From: a virus
Reading direction: 5' to 3' (one strand)
DNA: 21,490 nt
IMG/VR virus record: IMGVR_UViG_3300021185_001181
Location: 1 to 21,490 of that record
The notes under the pieces are model-generated. The model made no database searches. It saw nothing but the letters and a program-made list of their open reading frames with translations, and was not told where the DNA came from. The translations under genes were made by a program, and so were the position numbers. Below are positions 10,245 through 21,490 of the stretch, piece by piece. The stretch's first letter is position 1. Each line of letters begins with the position of its first letter.

Positions 10245-10905
10245 GATAACGATTCGCAATAAGGACTTTCTGAAACTTCTTGACGATACTGTTGAGAGGT
10301 TTCTGGTTCATCGTGAATTGATGACTGAGATATCTGCGAATCAGGGGAATGTTCCTATTGGGGCTGGTGAGTACTATTGTCAACAAAAACATCTATTTGA
10401 CATGATGGACAATCCTGATGATCACGAGGGATTTCCCGAACACGGATATGGATTCCAAGTATCTCACGGTGCAAAGTCTCATCCAGAGATATTTGAACCA
10501 TTGAAGATGTGGACTAAGAATGAACTGGTTCGTATGTTTGGTGCAAACAATAACTCTCTGACATCCTACTATCCCCCCAATGGATATGTGGGTTGGCATA
10601 CTAATTGGAATGCCTTTGGTTATCAGATGATTCTCACTTGGTCTGAGAGTGGTGATGGTTACTTCTCTTATTACGACAATGAGACTAAGAGTATAGTGAC
10701 CCATCATGACAGGACTGGGTGGCAAGCGAGATGGTATCGGTTTGGTCGTAAAGATGAACCCAAACATCATTGTTGGCACGCTGCATGGACAAACTGTCCT
10801 CGGTTTACTCTTGCGTTTAAGTTTCCCTATGGTGAAGACACTGAGAGACATGACCAAGCATATGATGCAATACAAGATTTAATTTACGATATGGAAACAC
10901 CTTGA
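10237..10905 (+). CDS. 2OG-Fe(II) dioxygenase-like protein with HxN instead of HxD
   Basis: 222 residues from the ATG at 10237. A TTG three bases earlier is in frame, but the ATG is the more likely start. The segment YYPPNGYVGWHTNWN (111-125) matches the iron site of a phage-type oxygenase family, but the usual HxD is HTN (H121, N123). A distal His is at H181 in HHCWHAAW, and the 2-oxoglutarate-binding Arg lies in CPRFTLAF (R189). Similar HTN forms are, as I recall, found in cyanophage homologues, so it is probably a real family trait. The gene overlaps thyX by 8 bases, and its stop codon lies inside the next promoter. The substrate is unknown. The Asn ligand leaves catalysis uncertain. Confidence 0.65.
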   Translation: MSEITIRNKDFLKLLDDTVERFLVHRELMTEISANQGNVPIGAGEYYCQQKHLFDMMDNPDDHEGFPEHGYGFQVSHGAKSHPEIFEPLKMWTKNELVRMFGANNNSLTSYYPPNGYVGWHTNWNAFGYQMILTWSESGDGYFSYYDNETKSIVTHHDRTGWQARWYRFGRKDEPKHHCWHAAWTNCPRFTLAFKFPYGEDTERHDQAYDAIQDLIYDMETP

Positions 10906-10930
10906 CTTTTCGTCATAATGGTGATATACT
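10902..10930 (+). promoter_or_regulatory. Sigma70-type promoter for the lipid gene unit
   Basis: TTGACT (10902-10907), a 17-base spacer, and TATACT (10925-10930). The TGA stop codon of the oxygenase gene (10903-10905) is inside the -35 box, the third such arrangement in the window. It would transcribe 10966-13150. Confidence 0.75.
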
Positions 10931-10965: not shown

Positions 10966-11256
10966 GTGAAAGGAACGACAAAAAATAATATTGAATACAA
11001 GTATGCCGAAGACAAGGCGATGACCGAACTAATGGATTACATTGATGGAACCTATGGAGAACACTACTCCAAGAATAAGTTTCAGGCGACTGAGTTTATC
11101 ATTGATGGTGGTCATGGTGATGGTTTCTGTATTGGTAACATTATGAAGTACGCACAGAGATATGGTAACAAGAACGGTTACAATCGTGCTGACTTGATGA
11201 AGGTGTTACACTACGCAATCATCCAACTTCATGTACATGATGTAAACGGGAGATAG
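10966..11256 (+). CDS. DUF3310-like small conserved phage protein
   Basis: 96 residues starting with GTG, preceded by an AGAGGGA ribosome-binding site. The core segment KYAEDKAMTELMDYI, then SKNKFQATEFIIDGGHGDGF, CIGNIMKYAQRYGNK and DLMKVLHYAIIQL resembles small proteins (often labelled DUF3310) found in most marine T4-like phages. It is wholly soluble with His and Cys residues in a compact helical core. The function is not established, and nucleotide-kinase labels for related proteins are weakly based. It is the first gene after the early promoter at 10902 and lies 2 bases from the ketosynthase gene. Confidence 0.75.
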   Translation: MKGTTKNNIEYKYAEDKAMTELMDYIDGTYGEHYSKNKFQATEFIIDGGHGDGFCIGNIMKYAQRYGNKNGYNRADLMKVLHYAIIQLHVHDVNGR

Positions 11257-11258
11257 AA

Positions 11259-12425
11259 ATGAAAGATAGAGTAGTTATTACTGGTGTGGGTTTAGTTGAT
11301 AGTCTGGGCACCAGTCCAATGGAATGTTGGGATAACATGATCAGTGATGATTATGTAGACCCTATAGACTTTGAGACTGAAGTTGAGTCTCTCAAAGGAA
11401 ACAAGTGTTTTAGGTCAAAGACTCCAGAATACATACTTCCAGAGGGTATTCGCAAACCAACCTTTGCCTCCTTGTCTACTGCGGCTAAGAATGCACTTCA
11501 TGTTGTACAACAGGCAATCGGTGACATTGATGATAATGATGTTGCGGTTGTCTTTAGTTCGGTTGCGGCGAATCCAGAGACCGTGGCGAAACCATTCCTT
11601 GAAAAGATGTTAGGTGGTAAACGTTTGTCTCCCCGCACTGGAGTGCAATTTCTCAAAGACTTCTCTGCTGGATTGATCAGTCAGGTATTTGATTTTAGGG
11701 GTGCGTGTGTCAGTATGGATGCCGCCTGTGCGACTGGACTATACTCTATCGACTATGGTGTTCATCTATTGGACACACACAAGTTTGTTGTTGTGGGTGG
11801 TACTGACAATCCCGCAGTGGATGACAACATATACATCTTTAGTCAGTTGGGTGCGCTAGGAACAAAGTCCAGTCCATTCGATAAGAATCGTGATGGGTTC
11901 ATTATGGGTGAAGGTGCTGGTGCGTTGTTATTAGAGAAAGAGTCTGATGCAATTGCACGAGGTGCAAACATCATTGGATACATCCATTCACTGTCACACC
12001 ATACAGATGGTGCCTTGGGCAAACCTACTGCACCAGACCCCAACAGTACAGGATCACTTGCATCAATGAGACAGGTGACTGATGGTATCGTTGACGATAT
12101 TGCATTTGTTAATGCACATGGTACATCAACTCCCTTGGGAGATGACCTCGAATATGGTGCAATTCAACAAGTCGTACCTAGTGTACCTGTAGTGAGTTTC
12201 AAGTCAAAGGTTGGACACTCTCTTGCAGCGAGTGGTATCAATGAGACAATCTATACTCTGATGTGTCTGTATAATAAAGTTATACCTAAAAACTTCAATA
12301 TAGATGAATGTGAACATGAGTTTGTGTATAAATACAGAAGAGAGATACATGGCAAATATGCAGTGAAGAATTCTTTCGCCTTTGGTGGTCGATCTTCTTC
12401 TCTGGTTCTGGAAGCAAAATGTTAA
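11259..12425 (+). CDS. Beta-ketoacyl-ACP synthase (FabF/KAS II-like)
   Basis: A thiolase-fold condensing enzyme of 388 residues, slightly shorter than bacterial FabF (about 410). All three catalytic residues are present: the nucleophile C157 in VSMDAACATG, H287 in NAHGTSTPLGD and H320 in FKSKVGHSLAASG. The N-terminal VVITGVGLVDSLG strand and the FIMGEGAGALLLE segment are also typical. In FabF the enzyme elongates acyl-ACP by two carbons from malonyl-ACP. No acyl carrier protein or other fatty-acid gene except a desaturase is visible, so it would work with host ACP. It overlaps the desaturase gene by 7 bases. An intact active site argues for a working enzyme, although ketosynthases of polyketide or lipid-A type cannot be excluded. 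Confidence 0.92.
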   Translation: MKDRVVITGVGLVDSLGTSPMECWDNMISDDYVDPIDFETEVESLKGNKCFRSKTPEYILPEGIRKPTFASLSTAAKNALHVVQQAIGDIDDNDVAVVFSSVAANPETVAKPFLEKMLGGKRLSPRTGVQFLKDFSAGLISQVFDFRGACVSMDAACATGLYSIDYGVHLLDTHKFVVVGGTDNPAVDDNIYIFSQLGALGTKSSPFDKNRDGFIMGEGAGALLLEKESDAIARGANIIGYIHSLSHHTDGALGKPTAPDPNSTGSLASMRQVTDGIVDDIAFVNAHGTSTPLGDDLEYGAIQQVVPSVPVVSFKSKVGHSLAASGINETIYTLMCLYNKVIPKNFNIDECEHEFVYKYRREIHGKYAVKNSFAFGGRSSSLVLEAKC

Positions 12426-13150
12426 AAAAATTTACTCTATCGAGTTTGATCGGCAGAAAACATAGTGGAAAATTGCACACAACAATTTATATGATGTGTG
12501 CAATACTCGCTGTTGTGTGGATACCCCAACACACAATTAGTGAGATGTTACTTTTCCTTCTGATCTCATTTCCTCTTGCGGGGTATCTCATATCGGGATT
12601 TCAACATAGGTATTGTTCTCATAAGTCTTGGCAACCTAGTCGCCCTGTAGAGATTCTGAGTGTGTTATTAGTTACAGGTTTTGCGTTGACCCCATGTATG
12701 GGATGGTCGGGAACTCATATGAACCACCACAGATATACTGATACTGAGTTAGACCCCCACGGAAACTACCATAGTCTCTGGAAAAATCTTTTTGTTTTTA
12801 ACTATCCTCCACAACTCTCAAATATTCCAAGATGGCAATTGAGGGATTTGTTATATGTAATTCAAGCAAAATATTACTGGGAGATTGTAATCCCATTCGC
12901 AATATTGGCGTTTGCCCTTGGGTTCGGACAGGCGTATCTATCGTTCATTGGATTTTGTTATATCTTTCAAGTATCACTGAATATAGTTGGACACCCCAAT
13001 CTAGAACCCACAAACAACGATTTCTTAGCTGCCGTATGGGGTGGTGAATTGTATCACAAGTTTCATCACGAAAATCCCCGTAATCCTCGCTTTGGTAAGT
13101 TTGATACTACCTACCAGTTCTTCATAAGATGGTTAAATATTAAAAAATAA
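12419..13150 (+). CDS. Membrane fatty-acid desaturase (acyl-CoA/ACP Delta9-type)
   Basis: An integral membrane di-iron desaturase of 243 residues with the three histidine boxes in order: H63-RYCS-H68, H100-MN-HH104 and H213-KF-HH217. An extra conserved His (NIVGHP, H192) is also present. Hydrophobic segments lie at about residues 22-60, 78-96 and 155-190. This matches the stearoyl-type desaturase family, which places a double bond in saturated fatty acyl chains using an electron donor. No donor (ferredoxin, rubredoxin) is encoded nearby, so the host's would be used. The coupled ketosynthase suggests a joint effect on membrane lipid unsaturation or chain length during infection. Short compared with the roughly 300 residues or more of many homologues, but the core is complete. 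Confidence 0.92.
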   Translation: MLKKFTLSSLIGRKHSGKLHTTIYMMCAILAVVWIPQHTISEMLLFLLISFPLAGYLISGFQHRYCSHKSWQPSRPVEILSVLLVTGFALTPCMGWSGTHMNHHRYTDTELDPHGNYHSLWKNLFVFNYPPQLSNIPRWQLRDLLYVIQAKYYWEIVIPFAILAFALGFGQAYLSFIGFCYIFQVSLNIVGHPNLEPTNNDFLAAVWGGELYHKFHHENPRNPRFGKFDTTYQFFIRWLNIKK

Positions 13151-13153
13151 TAC

Positions 13154-13183
13154 TTGACAAACCTTGTTCATTCGTGTTATAAT
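13154..13183 (+). promoter_or_regulatory. Sigma70-type promoter for the small-gene unit
   Basis: TTGACA (13154-13159), an 18-base spacer, and TATAAT (13178-13183). It lies right after the desaturase stop codon and upstream of the gene at 13210. Confidence 0.8.
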
Positions 13184-14803: not shown

Positions 14804-15052
14804 GTGGAAATAGTCGATACAATAAAAGATTTTGGTTTTCCTATAGTTGCGGCAGTTGGTATGCTGTACATGATTTATTTCGTGTGGAAAACCATAACAG
14901 AGGAAGTAGAAAAGAACCTAGATGAAACAATGACCACCCTAATAGGACTAATTGATCGTATTAGGATGCTTGATAATGATATTATCCGATTGCAACAGAA
15001 GTTAGATACCGCAATTGAGATGAGGAGAAAACAAGATGAAGAAGATAATTAG
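14804..15052 (+). CDS. Small holin-like membrane protein (paralogue B)
   Basis: 82 residues starting with GTG at 14804, one base after the preceding stop codon. An ATG at 14802 is in another frame and stops quickly, so GTG is preferred. A membrane segment at about 10-30 (GFPIVAAVGMLYMIYFVW) is followed by an acidic, coiled-coil-like region and a charged C-terminus. It is a paralogue of the gene at 14048. Similar small phage proteins beginning with an 'IKxFGFPI' motif are often labelled as UviB/BhlA-like. It overlaps csgF by 17 bases. Confidence 0.6.
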   Translation: MEIVDTIKDFGFPIVAAVGMLYMIYFVWKTITEEVEKNLDETMTTLIGLIDRIRMLDNDIIRLQQKLDTAIEMRRKQDEEDN

Positions 15053-15488
15053 CGTAGGAGTATGGATAGGACTTATATTTCTGGTAAGTAATGTAAACGC
15101 AGCACCCATAGAACACAAGTTCAAGTCTCCATCGTTTAGTGGCATAAACCAATCCAGTCACTACCTTACGATTGAGAATCAAGAGACCTCTCGGAAAGAC
15201 GCAATCAAACAAGAGTTGAAAGACCTTCAAGAACAACTGGAGAGGGATGCCGAGAACACGACACTCGCAAAGTTTATTCGTAATGTGGAAAGTAGAATTT
15301 ACTCTACACTTTCCCGACAAATTGTCGATAGTATGTTTGGGGAGAATCCTTCTGAGAGTGGGGAGTTTAACATAGAAGGAACAGGTATATCATATGTCAC
15401 TGATGGTGATAGTGTGGTATTAACAGTAACAGATGAGAATGGAAATGTCACGACTATTACTATTCCCCTTGGTGATTTTGGTATCTAG
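15036..15488 (+). CDS. csgF: CsgF-like curli assembly factor
   Basis: 150 residues. An N-terminal signal peptide (MKKIISVGVWIGLIFLVSNVNA) has likely cleavage after Ala22 or Ala23. The mature N-terminus (HKFKSPSFSG) matches the CsgF segment that inserts into the CsgG pore (E. coli: FQFRNPNFGG). A helical middle region (about 50-105) leads to a C-terminal beta region (VVLTVTDENGNVTTITIPLG) resembling the E. coli tail (LNVTDRKTGQTSTIQVSG). In E. coli, CsgF links the CsgG pore to the curli nucleator at the cell surface. The gene directly precedes csgG and overlaps it by about 50 bases, as expected for a paired function. Confidence 0.87.
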   Translation: MKKIISVGVWIGLIFLVSNVNAAPIEHKFKSPSFSGINQSSHYLTIENQETSRKDAIKQELKDLQEQLERDAENTTLAKFIRNVESRIYSTLSRQIVDSMFGENPSESGEFNIEGTGISYVTDGDSVVLTVTDENGNVTTITIPLGDFGI

Positions 15489-16248
15489 TTGTGCTTCGAT
15501 TGGCGGTGGTCAATTTGAAATACCAACTAGAGAAGAACCAGAGATTCAGTTCACATTATTGCAACAAGAACTGATCGATGTGGGTGAACCTACAAGGAGA
15601 CCTACACTTGCGGTTTACCAGTTTACAGACCAGACAGGGCAGAAGAGACAGAACAGTGCAGGTGGGACTTCCTTTAGTTCTGCGGTCACTCAGGCACCAG
15701 ATGTATATCTGATTCGTGCCTTGACCCGTGCGGGAAACGGAAAGTTCTTCAAAGTTGTAGACCGTCAAATTCTCGACCATCTGACGAGAGAACGACAGTT
15801 AATACGTCAAACTCGTCAATCTTACGAGGGTGAGGAAGGAAAACGACTCCCAGCGCTAACATTTGCTGGTATGATAATTGCAGGAGGTATAGTAGGATAC
15901 GATACTTCCGTTGACACGGGTGGTGCGGGTGCCAGATATCTTGGTATAGGTACTTCTCGTGAATTTAGTATTGACACAGTTACAATCAATATACGATTGG
16001 TGTCAGTTGCTACAGGTGAGGTATTGTTGGATGTTATATCCTCCAAGACCATACTCTCCACAGGAACAAGTGGAGATGTGTTTAGATTTATAGAACAGGG
16101 TACAGAACTGATTGAAATAGAATCAGGAGTTACCCAAAACGAATCTGTCTCTATTGCGACCCAACGTGCGATAGAAGCAGGTGTTCTAGAACTCATCTTG
16201 AGAGGAACTCAACGAGGGTTTTGGAAAATTAACGGAGAAAATAAATGA
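15433..16248 (+). CDS. csgG: CsgG-like outer-membrane curli export lipoprotein
   Basis: The nonameric outer-membrane channel of curli (type VIII) secretion. 271 residues, about the family's usual length. A lipoprotein signal with lipobox VSSC puts the lipidated cysteine at C20. The mature body aligns with E. coli CsgG across LAVYQFTDQTGQ (59-70), SFSSAVTQ (80-87, whose F81 aligns with the constriction Phe), IIAGGIVGYDTSV (148-160), GAGARYLGIG (164-173), IRLVSVATGEVL (187-198), SSKTIL (203-208) and GVLELILRGTQRGFW (250-264). The start is uncertain among three in-frame ATGs (15433, 15439, 15445). The last, giving MSRLLLF, leaves the shortest typical signal peptide. It is coupled to csgF and to the next gene by ATGA. 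Confidence 0.93.
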   Translation: MRMEMSRLLLFPLVILVSSCASIGGGQFEIPTREEPEIQFTLLQQELIDVGEPTRRPTLAVYQFTDQTGQKRQNSAGGTSFSSAVTQAPDVYLIRALTRAGNGKFFKVVDRQILDHLTRERQLIRQTRQSYEGEEGKRLPALTFAGMIIAGGIVGYDTSVDTGGAGARYLGIGTSREFSIDTVTINIRLVSVATGEVLLDVISSKTILSTGTSGDVFRFIEQGTELIEIESGVTQNESVSIATQRAIEAGVLELILRGTQRGFWKINGENK

Positions 16249-16964
16249 ACGCAAAACAAAAACTAACTTTTGTTATGATGTTCTTGGTAGGTAGTGCATA
16301 TGCCGATAACGAAATTTACATCGACCAAGTCGGTGATAGTTCTGTTATCGAAATCATACAGGACGGTTCAGGAAACAAGGTGGGCGGATCAACTTCCGAT
16401 GACACCAAGTTTGTACTGGATGGTGACAGCATGGATTTCAATGTCAATATGAGTGGTGGGAGTAATAACCTTATTGGTTCTATCTTCGGCACCTCTGTTG
16501 TTGATATCGACATCAATGGTTCGAGTAATGATTTGTTCTTTGATGTAGACAAGGACAATGCATATGGCGCAACCAACGGAGACTTTGTTTTTGATCTTAC
16601 TGGTAGTAACAATGAACTAGACTTGGATGTCGGTTCTCTGGATACTGCTAACGATCTGGACTTTGATATGATAGTCGATGGTGACTTCAATACCGCAGAC
16701 ATAAACATTGATGCTTCATCTTTGACATTCAACATGGATATGGCGGGAGACAATAATAACCTACTATATAATGGTAGTGGATATGATGGACATGAGTTCG
16801 TCTTGACTGGACTTGGTAGTTACTGGGACATTGAAGTTAATCAAGAATCTACTCTACAGACAGATTCATTGGAGATAGAATATGATGGTTCGGGAACAAG
16901 TACAACAGATTCTACTATTTGTATCACTCAGTCTGATTCTGGTATGGCCCACGGTTGTCAGTAG
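16245..16964 (+). CDS. Secreted curlin-like repeat protein (candidate CsgA/CsgB-type substrate)
   Basis: 239 residues. A signal peptide (MNAKQKLTFVMMFLVGSAYA) has an AYA cleavage site after residue 20. The mature N-terminus (IYIDQVGDSSVIEIIQDGSG, 24-43) closely resembles curlin repeats (compare CsgB IDQTGDYN and IIQKGSGN). From about 60 to 205 there are about six Asn/Asp/Gly-rich beta repeats with a hydrophobic-polar alternation, each around 'GSxN' (for example 66-78, 86-98, 114-127, 164-175). The end (ICITQSDSGMAHGC) is again curlin-like and has two cysteines. It directly follows csgG with an ATGA overlap and a GGAG site. An exported amyloid-forming substrate is the best reading. A non-amyloid beta-solenoid is possible. 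Confidence 0.75.
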   Translation: MNAKQKLTFVMMFLVGSAYADNEIYIDQVGDSSVIEIIQDGSGNKVGGSTSDDTKFVLDGDSMDFNVNMSGGSNNLIGSIFGTSVVDIDINGSSNDLFFDVDKDNAYGATNGDFVFDLTGSNNELDLDVGSLDTANDLDFDMIVDGDFNTADINIDASSLTFNMDMAGDNNNLLYNGSGYDGHEFVLTGLGSYWDIEVNQESTLQTDSLEIEYDGSGTSTTDSTICITQSDSGMAHGCQ

Positions 16965-17997
16965 TGATGTAGGTGCAGTGGATCGTGCGGTCGGGTGGAG
17001 ACAGATTGTACGAGAAGAGGAGAATATAGAACCGAAAAGTGGTCAGGATGTAATATCTAAAGATGACCTTCGCACAGGCGAGGGGCGTCTTCAGGTACGA
17101 TTTGTTGACGATTCTAAGTTACGTATGACCGAACACACTCGCATTGTGATTGACAATGTAGTATTTGATGATGATCCGAGTAAATCGGATTTGGCAATGA
17201 CGTTTGCACAGGGTACTGCGAGGTTTATATCTGGACAACTGGGAAAGGTTGATCGTGAGAACATCAGACTAAAGACCCCTACCGCATCTATCGGTATTCG
17301 TGGGACAGACTTCACGGTCACAGTTGATGAGTTCGGACAAACCCTCGTGGTACTCTTGCCTGATGTTGATGGTGTATCATCAGGTGAGATTGTTGTTTCG
17401 ACAATGACAGGTGAGGTGGTTCTCAACAAACCATTCGAGGCAACTCGGACGATGGTTCAAGAGAGTCCACCTTCATCACCTGCTATCCTAGATTTGACTC
17501 TGGATATGCTCAATAACATTATGATCATCAGTCCCCCCAAGAAGAAAGAAACCCAAGAAGAATTCATGGTCAATATCGATCCCGACAAGAACATCAATCC
17601 CCTTGATGTGGACTTTCTGGATGAGGACTTACTCGCAGAAGAAGAACTGGAACGAGACCTTCTGGAGTACAACGAACTGGACATCAACTATCTGGATGTC
17701 GATCTACTGGAGGACTTACTAGATTCCTTTGACTCTCTGGGTGAAGAGATGCTACAGGAGAAGCAGAGTACTGGTGAGATGGACATACAGGGAACAGAAG
17801 AGGGATTCGATACAGTCACTCAGGTTGCAACCATTGTGGATGGAGACAAGGTTTTGGTCAATCGTGAGGTCAATGATATTGCTCGTATATCGGTTGACAA
17901 GAGTGCATCCACCACCATCAATCTAGAACAGGACGGAAAAGAACTAGACCCCATCAAGATTAATGGATTTGGTACAGTTATAAATATAGTACAATGA
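16882..17997 (+). CDS. FecR-domain secreted protein
   Basis: 371 residues. A signal peptide spans residues 1-28 or so (hydrophobic QQILLFVSLSLILVW). The FecR domain is at about 50-190: GRLQVRFVDDSKLRMTEHTR (68-87), FAQGTARFISGQLGK (108-122), and the hallmark LKTPTASIGIRGTDF (130-144). A Pro-rich linker follows, then a stretch of Asp/Leu repeats (about 240-285, for example NPLDVDFLDEDLL and INYLDVDLLEDLL), and a C-terminal curlin-like tail (about 344-371, TTINLEQDG and GFGTVINIVQ). FecR domains in surface proteins bind ligands or scaffold assemblies. The start has a GGAG site at 16871-16874, and its signal peptide is encoded in an 83-base overlap with the upstream gene. It is followed directly by the cyclase, which is a familiar partner of FecR proteins. 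Confidence 0.85.
   Translation: MMVREQVQQILLFVSLSLILVWPTVVSSDVGAVDRAVGWRQIVREEENIEPKSGQDVISKDDLRTGEGRLQVRFVDDSKLRMTEHTRIVIDNVVFDDDPSKSDLAMTFAQGTARFISGQLGKVDRENIRLKTPTASIGIRGTDFTVTVDEFGQTLVVLLPDVDGVSSGEIVVSTMTGEVVLNKPFEATRTMVQESPPSSPAILDLTLDMLNNIMIISPPKKKETQEEFMVNIDPDKNINPLDVDFLDEDLLAEEELERDLLEYNELDINYLDVDLLEDLLDSFDSLGEEMLQEKQSTGEMDIQGTEEGFDTVTQVATIVDGDKVLVNREVNDIARISVDKSASTTINLEQDGKELDPIKINGFGTVINIVQ
17979..17986 (+). promoter_or_regulatory. T4-type late promoter box inside the FecR gene
   Basis: An exact TATAAATA, 7 bases before the cyclase ATG at 17994. This is the same geometry as at 14033 (box, 7 bases, ATG). The expected transcript begins about 2 bases before the ATG with no ribosome-binding site. 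It may instead be coding sequence that matches by chance, since it lies in the FecR C-terminal codons. Confidence 0.55.
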
Positions 17998-19814
17998 AAA
18001 CATGGCACTGTATTATAACACTGGGTATTCTGATTGGGATTAGGTTACTTGACCCATTCCTTCTAGAGAGTGCCAGACTGTCCTTCTTCGATTCCCTACA
18101 GAGGAACCAAGAAGTACAGGTGTCCGAACAGATTGTACTGGTGGATATTGATGAGAAGACCCTAGACAAGTTTGGACAATACCCCATCCCTCGTAAGGTG
18201 ATGGCAGATGAGATTGACAAGATTGAGGGTAGTATCATCGCATTCAATATCTTGTTCTCAGAACCAGACAGGATGGGAGGTGACGAACACTTCGCAGACA
18301 TCCTATCGTGGAAACAAGCAGTAGTCGCAATCGCACCATCCAATCGAACCAACACAGACTACAGACCACCCCGTATCGGTACTGCCACATTCGGTGACAG
18401 GGATGCCGAGGACTTCCGACCAGAACTACAGGGTATGCTTTTTGCTCAACCCATCATACACAAGTCATCATTTGGATACGGAACAATATCATCGGCCCAG
18501 GATGTTGATGGTATCATTCGTAGACAACCCCTACTAGAGAACTTTGACGGTAGACTTTATCCCGCATTTGCGTTAGACATACTGCGAGTTGCCGCAGGGG
18601 ATTCGTCCTACCAGATATCTACAGATGACTATGGAATCGAGTTCGTTCGTATACCCAAGTTCAAACCAGTACCCACAAGTGTAACTGGAGAGGTTACAAT
18701 CGCATACTGGAATGAGTTCAAGAGATACTCGTTCACTGAACTGGATACTATACCAGAGGGTTCGATAATCATCGTAGGTGCGACTTTCGAAGGTTCTAAT
18801 GTAGTTTCTACTCCGATGGGTGCGATGTATCCCCATGACGTACAAGCAAACCTAGTCAAGACAATGATCGATGGAGTGGTACTCAAAAGGCAGTCTGAAT
18901 TTATTTTGTACGAGGTCTTGACAACTCTTGCGTTATGTGTTATACTCTTAGCTCTGTTGCTGAGGGCTAATATACCAGTCGCAGGGATGACATTCTGTGT
19001 CTTTGTGATGGGTCTATATGTCTTCGCAACGGATACCTTTGCCACATATTACTTATTGTTTGACCCTGTGTTCCCTATACTGACTGTGGTGCTAGTATTC
19101 GCACATGGTTCCTTTGTTCAGTTCTATACTCAGTTCAAAGCAAAGCAGATGATCAAGGGACAGTTCGGTACATACCTTTCACCCGACATGGTAGATATGC
19201 TTGCCAATGATCCATCTCTGATGAAACTAGGTGGAGAGAAGAAGGAGATGACCTTCTTGTTTATGGACATATGTGGTTTCACCCCCATATCCGAACACTA
19301 CAAAAACAGAAACGATGCAGAGGGTTTGGTCACATTAATTAACAATTATCTCAATGAAATGACTAAAATAATACTAAATAACGGTGGTACAATCGACAAG
19401 TATATGGGAGATTGTATTATGGCATTTTGGAATGCCCCCCTACCGTGTGAGGATCATGCGGAAATGGCAGTTAAATCCGCAATAGAAATAGAAGAGAAAA
19501 CTAATGAACTCAGACAACGATATAGCGAACAGGGTCTACCCCCCATCAATGTTGGAACTGGTATCAATACAGGTACTTGCATTGTTGGTAATATGGGTAG
19601 TGAGTCACGGTTTGACTATTCAGTCATCGGAGACTCCGTCAACCTTGCCGCAAGACTTGAAGCAACTGCCGCACGAGGAGACTACCTTGAATACAAGACC
19701 ATCTACTCAAGTTACACAATGGAGCAACTTACAAACATTAAATCGAGATCAATAGGTAAGATCAAGGTTAAAGGTAAGGAGGAAGAAATTGACATCTACA
19801 CAGTGGATCGATAA
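17994..19814 (+). CDS. CHASE2-class III adenylate cyclase
   Basis: A membrane-anchored receptor cyclase of 606 residues. A single N-terminal membrane helix (about 4-20) is followed by a periplasmic CHASE2 sensor domain (about 28-298: FFDSLQRNQE, IVLVDIDEKTL, NILFSEPDR). Three membrane helices follow at about 303-375, then a cytosolic class III catalytic domain (about 415-580). The metal-binding Asp residues are D425 (FLFMDICGFT) and D473 (DKYMGDCIM). K469 and D541 (FDYSVIGDSVN) are the adenine-selecting pair, and N550 and R554 (SVNLAARLE) are the transition-state residues. All are present, so cAMP synthesis is expected. The start is coupled to the FecR stop codon by ATGA. Full-length sensory cyclases are very unusual in phages. 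Confidence 0.93.
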   Translation: MKTWHCIITLGILIGIRLLDPFLLESARLSFFDSLQRNQEVQVSEQIVLVDIDEKTLDKFGQYPIPRKVMADEIDKIEGSIIAFNILFSEPDRMGGDEHFADILSWKQAVVAIAPSNRTNTDYRPPRIGTATFGDRDAEDFRPELQGMLFAQPIIHKSSFGYGTISSAQDVDGIIRRQPLLENFDGRLYPAFALDILRVAAGDSSYQISTDDYGIEFVRIPKFKPVPTSVTGEVTIAYWNEFKRYSFTELDTIPEGSIIIVGATFEGSNVVSTPMGAMYPHDVQANLVKTMIDGVVLKRQSEFILYEVLTTLALCVILLALLLRANIPVAGMTFCVFVMGLYVFATDTFATYYLLFDPVFPILTVVLVFAHGSFVQFYTQFKAKQMIKGQFGTYLSPDMVDMLANDPSLMKLGGEKKEMTFLFMDICGFTPISEHYKNRNDAEGLVTLINNYLNEMTKIILNNGGTIDKYMGDCIMAFWNAPLPCEDHAEMAVKSAIEIEEKTNELRQRYSEQGLPPINVGTGINTGTCIVGNMGSESRFDYSVIGDSVNLAARLEATAARGDYLEYKTIYSSYTMEQLTNIKSRSIGKIKVKGKEEEIDIYTVDR

Positions 19815-20898: not shown

Positions 20899-21164
20899 TG
20901 GCACTTGCCCCTTTTAGTGTTGAACCAGTATTGGGAGAGTTCACTGAGAAAGATTATGGGAACTACTTCCACTACTCTGAGAATGATGACCCCTTTAATT
21001 GGTGTGAGGACTTTCCCCACAAAATCTGGGTAGGAGGTCTGGGTCAACAGTATCGTTACGGTCTGGTGAAAAAGACCGTGGCATATATCTGTGTTGATGA
21101 AGATGAATTTGGTCTCCCTGTTGTCGAGAAATGGCAGTTGAAGAAGAATGTTACATTCGTCTAG
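20898..21164 (+). CDS. Protein of unknown function, 88 aa
   Basis: The ATG at 20898 is preferred to an earlier in-frame ATG at 20826. It overlaps the preceding stop codon (TAATG), has a GGAG site just upstream, and the earlier codons fall inside the membrane-protein gene. It is soluble and rich in aromatic residues (NYFHYSEN, FPHKIWVGGLGQQYRYG). It contains a conserved-looking VAYICVDEDEFG segment and a Lys-rich end. No recognised family. It overlaps the decarboxylase start by 17 bases. Confidence 0.65.
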   Translation: MALAPFSVEPVLGEFTEKDYGNYFHYSENDDPFNWCEDFPHKIWVGGLGQQYRYGLVKKTVAYICVDEDEFGLPVVEKWQLKKNVTFV

Positions 21165-21490
21165 ACCATTCTTACACATCTTTCTGAGGGATTTGAGAGA
21201 GAATGTCAAACAGTTCCGTACTGCCATGCCGAGGGTAAGACCTCACTATGCGGTCAAGTCCAATCCAGAGAAAAAGATTCTACAGGTTCTCCATGACGAG
21301 GGAACCTGTTTCGAGGTAGCATCTGTCGCAGAGATAGATGCCATGATTGACCTTGGGGTTGATATGGAGAAGGTGCTATACTCCAATCCAATAAAATGTA
21401 CCGATTCTATCCGATACGCAGTAGATCATGGTATGGTCTGGTTCTGCGTTGACACCCCCGAAGAAGTGTTGAAGATTGCCAATGTAGGAC
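21148..21490 (+). CDS. Ornithine/diaminopimelate decarboxylase-family enzyme (5' part, runs off the window)
   Basis: The 114 codons in the window form the N-terminal part of a fold-type III PLP decarboxylase. RPFLHIFLRDLRENV (6-20) matches the family start. PRVRPHYAVKSNP (28-40) carries the PLP-binding lysine (K37), followed by TCFEVASVAEIDAMIDLGV and SNPIKC (82-87). These are hallmarks of ornithine/arginine/diaminopimelate decarboxylases; the short SNPIK-type motif is most like ornithine decarboxylase. The likely product would be putrescine, a counterion for packaged DNA. The ATG at 21148 overlaps the preceding gene by 17 bases, with only a weak GAAG site. The gene is cut by the window end. 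Confidence 0.85.
   Translation, partial: MLHSSRPFLHIFLRDLRENVKQFRTAMPRVRPHYAVKSNPEKKILQVLHDEGTCFEVASVAEIDAMIDLGVDMEKVLYSNPIKCTDSIRYAVDHGMVWFCVDTPEEVLKIANVG

Follow-up and report, generated by a model that had tools for sequence, protein, structure and literature searches.

A candidate fatty-acid module of T4-like phages: a ketosynthase-like gene overlapping a membrane desaturase gene

A 2018 study by Roitman reportedly describes fatty-acid desaturases of cyanophages. Desaturases are likewise carried by Nitrospirota viruses (PMC7678222) and by Arctic viruses, in which they are proposed to raise unsaturation (PMC7300359). Genes of fatty-acid synthesis have also been found in phage-associated DNA, with acpP-fabF-fabG in Rhodobacteraceae prophages (PMC8224337) and fabF, fabG, and fabZ reads in deep viromes (PMC10653327). 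In the freshwater fonsimyophages, group PMP-D, fabF and a stearoyl-CoA desaturase were listed as unique genes (Zaragoza-Solas 2020, PMC7029224). The locus described here, a beta-ketoacyl-ACP synthase-like ketosynthase gene (KS) followed by a membrane fatty-acid desaturase gene (DES), shares both annotations with the fonsimyophages, which are related SAR11 myophages.

Gene layout and expression signals

The stretch of DNA that we analyzed (i.e., the window) is a virus record of 21,490 bases whose contig type is T4-like (pelagimyophage-type), from a marine phage. It contains the T4-like replication genes for a family-B DNA polymerase (PHROG 262, 1026 bits), UvsX, a DnaB-type helicase, and ThyX, and these are followed by phage CsgF/CsgG, FecR, and CHASE2-cyclase genes. 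The hosts of its relatives are SAR11 (HTVC008M, Mosig) and OM43 (Melnitz), and its G+C content of 42.5% is similar to that of phage C48C1, which has no host recorded (42.8% over the stretch compared). A DUF3310 gene, KS, and DES, all on the + strand, are sited between ThyX and the curli genes, with the following features:

10902..10930, + strand: sigma70-like promoter TTGACT-17-TATACT, 10/12, with TG before the -10, upstream of the DUF3310 gene
10966..11256, + strand: DUF3310 gene (PF11753, 2e-10), ending 2 nt upstream of KS
11248..11252, + strand: Shine-Dalgarno-like sequence GGGAG before KS
11259..12425, + strand: KS, 388 aa, with C157/H287/K315/H320 intact
12410..12414, + strand: Shine-Dalgarno-like sequence GGAAG within the end of KS, 4 nt upstream of the DES ATG
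12419..13150, + strand: DES, 243 aa, with three His boxes plus NIVGH
13154..13183, + strand: perfect sigma70-like promoter TTGACA-18-TATAAT, 12/12, downstream of DES

The ATG of DES lies inside the 3' end of KS, which gives a 7-nt overlap (ATGTTAA). This layout suggests that KS and DES are co-transcribed and translationally coupled, and the DUF3310 gene, which precedes KS in window-type and L006-type viral loci, is probably co-transcribed with KS. The original prediction that an early sigma70 promoter drives the pair holds in part. The site upstream of the DUF3310 gene is a candidate promoter that could serve all three genes; it is conserved in two relatives (L049 and L010), while a third (L005) has its own TTGACA/TATAAT-type site at this place, and we found no terminator-like site on the + strand from this promoter through the end of DES. 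The perfect site, in contrast, was rejected as the driver of the pair because of its position downstream of DES, and it probably serves the next gene (13204). Expression of the pair may be early.

Several observations concern the remainder of the window. The CsgF, CsgG, curlin-like, FecR, and CHASE2-adenylate/guanylate cyclase genes stand in series with overlaps (15036-19814), and the cyclase gene adjoins the phage curli module, which suggests a signalling function connected with this module. The curlin-like gene (16245-16964), between CsgG and FecR, encodes a secreted-looking 239-aa protein with curlin-like repeats and a weak Curlin_rpt match (E 0.08). Since CsgA/CsgB were reported missing from such phages (PMC7029224, PMC9004378), this protein could be the missing fibre subunit. 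The contig ends within the start of an ornithine/arginine decarboxylase gene (21148-21489); fonsimyophages have been reported to carry the polyamine gene speH (PMC7029224).

Catalytic residues and predicted folds of KS and DES

KS matches both ketoacyl-synthase halves (Pfam PF00109, 6.7e-26; PF02801, 1.9e-20). The Cys-His-His triad that had been read from this gene is indeed intact, since C157, H287, and H320, together with K315, are invariant in 15 aligned viral KSs and in 33/33 viral representatives; the gating Phe375 is likewise present in 33/33. KS aligns to FabF structures over its full length by sequence, and its predicted fold (mean pLDDT 83.5) superposes on FabF structures with a Z of about 48 and an rmsd of 2.6 over 371 residues. 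Given that KS scores far under the NCBIfam FabF equivalog cut-off TIGR03150 (213.1 vs 493.75 bits), we call it FabF-like and do not assign it as FabF. The dN/dS of KS is approximately 0.1-0.2, indicating purifying selection.

Chain length in FabF is limited by Ile108, as is known from the FabF I108F mutant. The KS lineage that is paired with DES has Ala at this position, by an assignment that depends on alignment within a low-confidence loop of the KS model, and this Ala may fit long acyl substrates. In the same lineage the C-terminal (ACP-side) gating loop is AFGG[RK]S vs GFGGTN in FabF, and the second loop has a two-residue insertion relative to FabF. Since KS is below the equivalog cut-off and its gating loop is altered, its substrate could be unusual.

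DES passes the PF00487 gathering score narrowly (30.7 vs a cut-off of 29.7 bits). Its assignment as a three-histidine-box desaturase was confirmed by HRYCSH (63), HMNHH (100), and HKFHH (213), together with the Asn/His ligand motif NIVGH (188); these 9 His and 1 Asn are invariant in 10 viral relatives. Its hydrophobic segments are compatible with a membrane protein. Among solved structures, the DES model, which is of moderate confidence (mean pLDDT 74), fits stearoyl-CoA desaturases only (Foldseek probability 1.00), with a VIA Z of 12.2 and an rmsd of 4.3 over 222 residues against 4zyo. As for KS, the dN/dS of DES (approximately 0.2-0.3) indicates purifying selection.

Recurrence and origin of the pair

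Relatives were found by IMG/VR scans, with identities from 95% down to approximately 34% for KS and from 94% to 38% for DES. The overlapping ketosynthase and desaturase pair, which the original prediction had also proposed to look for in other viruses, recurs widely: KS is directly followed by DES in at least 21 other virus contigs, the adjacent pairs span 12 KS clusters (92% identity), and one gene stands between KS and DES in three more contigs (L207, L224, L226). The usual overlaps are 1, 4, 7 or 11 nt; in L185-L187 and L191-L192 they come out longer when the longest ORF is taken. Because the same order is found in 21 further virus contigs, we regard the overlap as more than chance. The genomic setting of the pair varies: in the window lineage it adjoins the curli region, in L006 and L009 the genes for the clamp loader and the sliding clamp, and in L011 it is surrounded by oxygenase genes. 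KS and DES distances co-vary (Mantel r 0.93, p 1e-4, 16 pairs), and this correlation points to a module that was inherited together.

We also asked how often a desaturase accompanies KS at a distance. An FA_desaturase was found somewhere in 9/10 larger KS-bearing virus records and in 1/19 T4-like records without KS; five of the ten KS-bearing records were already known to have DES near KS. Where no DES adjoins KS, a desaturase was present in 4/5 larger and 3/13 shorter KS-bearing records; the resulting 7/18 vs 1/19 for the KS-less T4-like records (p=0.02) is limited by the fragment length of the records. When KS and DES are not adjacent, the association is thus less strong than it seemed from the first sample (4/5). 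Three window-type phages of a close lineage (L012, L182, L188) keep DUF3310-KS with no DES adjoining KS, and in a large KS-only viral clade only one of the larger contigs has a desaturase, distant from KS. In such phages a cell-wall-hydrolase-like gene lies upstream, and a 78-aa unknown gene follows KS in L013 and L188.

Other arrangements were observed in divergent loci. In L190, DES is near KS on the opposite strand, and the region L190:3998-7959 holds KS followed by an unknown gene, a gene without a clear Pfam match, a MaoC-like dehydratase (-), Asp_Arg_Hydrox, and a desaturase (-), possibly a larger viral lipid cluster. A NifU/IscU-like Fe-S scaffold gene adjoins KS in two divergent loci (L225:5224-5601 and L059:4796-5200), and the L225 record has four desaturase matches.

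In the KS tree, all 33 viral representatives group in one clade apart from bacterial FabF (99% SH-aLRT); the cellular KS rows of this tree carry the bias of having been collected using patterns from viral KSs. One 'cellular' row falls inside this clade, a 6.5-kb MAG contig (L059) with an apparent 37% match, and this contig is probably viral. For DES, too, the viral and cellular rows are split, although the branches are long and the support for the split is lower (84%). KS matches in the phage collection at approximately 25-34% identity were not used, as they look like bacterial genes within contaminated or prophage-type records.

KS and desaturases are common in bacteria, so the pair might stem from contamination during assembly or from recent capture of a host operon. 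Its flanks, however, are phage DNA polymerase, UvsX, DnaB, ThyX, and phage curli genes, and the pair recurs in many virus contigs. No close cellular relative was found for KS in 299 Pseudomonadota genomes or for DES when cellular desaturases were compared with the viral profile. The best cellular KS match reached 242 bits, at FabF length, whereas viral KSs found with a desaturase score 388-692 bits; the best cellular desaturase reached 63.6 bits against the viral DES profile, whereas close viral ones score 300 or more. With best cellular matches this low, KS and DES do not look like auxiliary metabolic genes recently acquired from a host. The close identity to host genes that would have betrayed contamination was thus not found for either gene among the cellular sequences compared, and given the viral KS clade and the low cellular scores we reject contamination and recent host capture as highly improbable.

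Proposed function and comparison with known systems

The intact catalytic residues, purifying selection, recurrence of the pair in other viruses, and lack of a close cellular relative lend good support to the earlier proposal of a phage fatty-acid module. We consider it fairly probable, from sequences and structural models, that KS and DES are a two-enzyme auxiliary metabolic module acting with the host type II fatty-acid synthase to lengthen acyl chains of the host and to introduce double bonds into them. No PP-binding ACP gene was found in ten KS-bearing virus records, so we rejected a phage-encoded ACP; this implies that KS must rely on the host ACP and on the reduction and dehydration enzymes of host FAS-II.

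In the mechanism that we propose, both proteins would be produced together from one mRNA with overlapping reading frames. KS, using a FabF-type mechanism, would accept an acyl chain on Cys157 from acyl-ACP of the host and condense it with malonyl-ACP using His287/His320, and host FabG, FabZ/A, and FabI would complete each elongation cycle. DES, predicted to have the stearoyl-CoA desaturase fold, would act as a diiron enzyme integral to the membrane and use O2 and electron carriers of the host to place a cis double bond in long acyl chains. The expected result is that the lipids of the host membrane contain a higher proportion of chains that are longer and unsaturated, and the membrane might thereby stay fluid and supplied during shut-off of host gene expression. 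Catalysis, chain length, double-bond position, the change in lipids, and the benefit to the phage are all expectations of this model. The benefits that the original prediction suggested, namely lysis, membrane-protein function at low temperature, or prevention of superinfection, are likewise conjectural. Since the pair is kept and co-diverges in many aquatic phages, our data suggest that phages with the pair remodel host membrane lipids during infection. A more far-reaching version, which we put forward tentatively and with more doubt than confidence, is that the virus-specific KS family, with its altered acyl pocket and ACP-gating loops, is long-standing and, with its co-inherited desaturase, imposes a fatty-acid profile foreign to host FAS-II, as a form of lipid reprogramming across many aquatic tailed phages.

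Two other functions were weighed against membrane lipid remodelling. KS and DES could serve to synthesize or alter a special acyl group (e.g., lipid A/LPS acyl chains, or a hydroxylated or unusual fatty acid), so that an altered host surface excludes other phages and bulk fluidity is not the point. In distant loci (L190, L193, L233) the neighbours of KS include Asp_Arg_Hydrox or 2OG-Fe(II) oxygenase genes and, in one case, a gene for a MaoC-like dehydratase, which keeps this explanation in play; the desaturase of Mosig also adjoins an Asp_Arg_Hydrox gene, a family to which the lipid A hydroxylase LpxO belongs, and the gating loops of KS are unlike those of FabF. However, such phages commonly carry 2OG oxygenases, for which a link to KS is not required, the window lineage has none between its KS and DES genes, and no LPS acyltransferase adjoins the pair, so we regard a special acyl group as unlikely. 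Slightly less likely again is that KS and DES are replacement enzymes, whose stability would sustain normal synthesis, with an unchanged lipid profile, while the host genome is degraded or silenced. Such a role would suit the T4-like replication genes that surround the pair, the usual limitation of elongation by KS, and the sigma70-like promoter, which suggests transcription by host RNA polymerase. Both proteins nevertheless belong to virus-specific lineages distant from cellular enzymes, and the differing pocket and gating residues fit altered specificity better than plain replacement. Remodelling of host membrane lipids is the function that we prefer. Since KS controls chain length, two genes may suffice to redirect the whole pathway by borrowing the other enzymes of the host. 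With a conserved module of two enzymes, whose KS forms a viral clade of its own, the idea that phages control fatty-acid synthesis in their hosts becomes concrete and testable.

Compared with FabF (KAS II), KS has the same fold, Cys-His-His and Lys, and full-length alignment, but it shares only about 25-30% identity, has 388 vs about 412 aa, falls below the equivalog cut-off, and differs in its gating loops and in the Ala at the Ile108 position. DES shares three His boxes, Asn-x-x-Gly-His, and the predicted fold with stearoyl-CoA/acyl desaturases (PF00487; 4zyo, 4ymk), but it has 243 aa and 14-16% identity over the aligned part. The Rhodobacteraceae prophages (PMC8224337) also have FabF within (pro)phage regions; there ACP and FabG accompany it in the gene order of a bacterial fab operon, whereas no ACP was found here and KS belongs to a virus-specific clade. 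The window shares a phage-borne desaturase with the Arctic viruses (PMC7300359) and the cyanophages, in which a ketosynthase partner is not known to have been described. The literature that we searched contained no description of an overlapping KS-DES module or of a viral KS clade. For the fonsimyophages (PMC7029224), which lack curli, the two genes were given only in a lipid gene list, whereas in the window they overlap, in a phage with curli genes, and their recurrence and co-divergence are shown here. Phage desaturases and fabF in SAR11 phages were thus already known, and the conserved overlapping module and the viral KS clade are apparently new.
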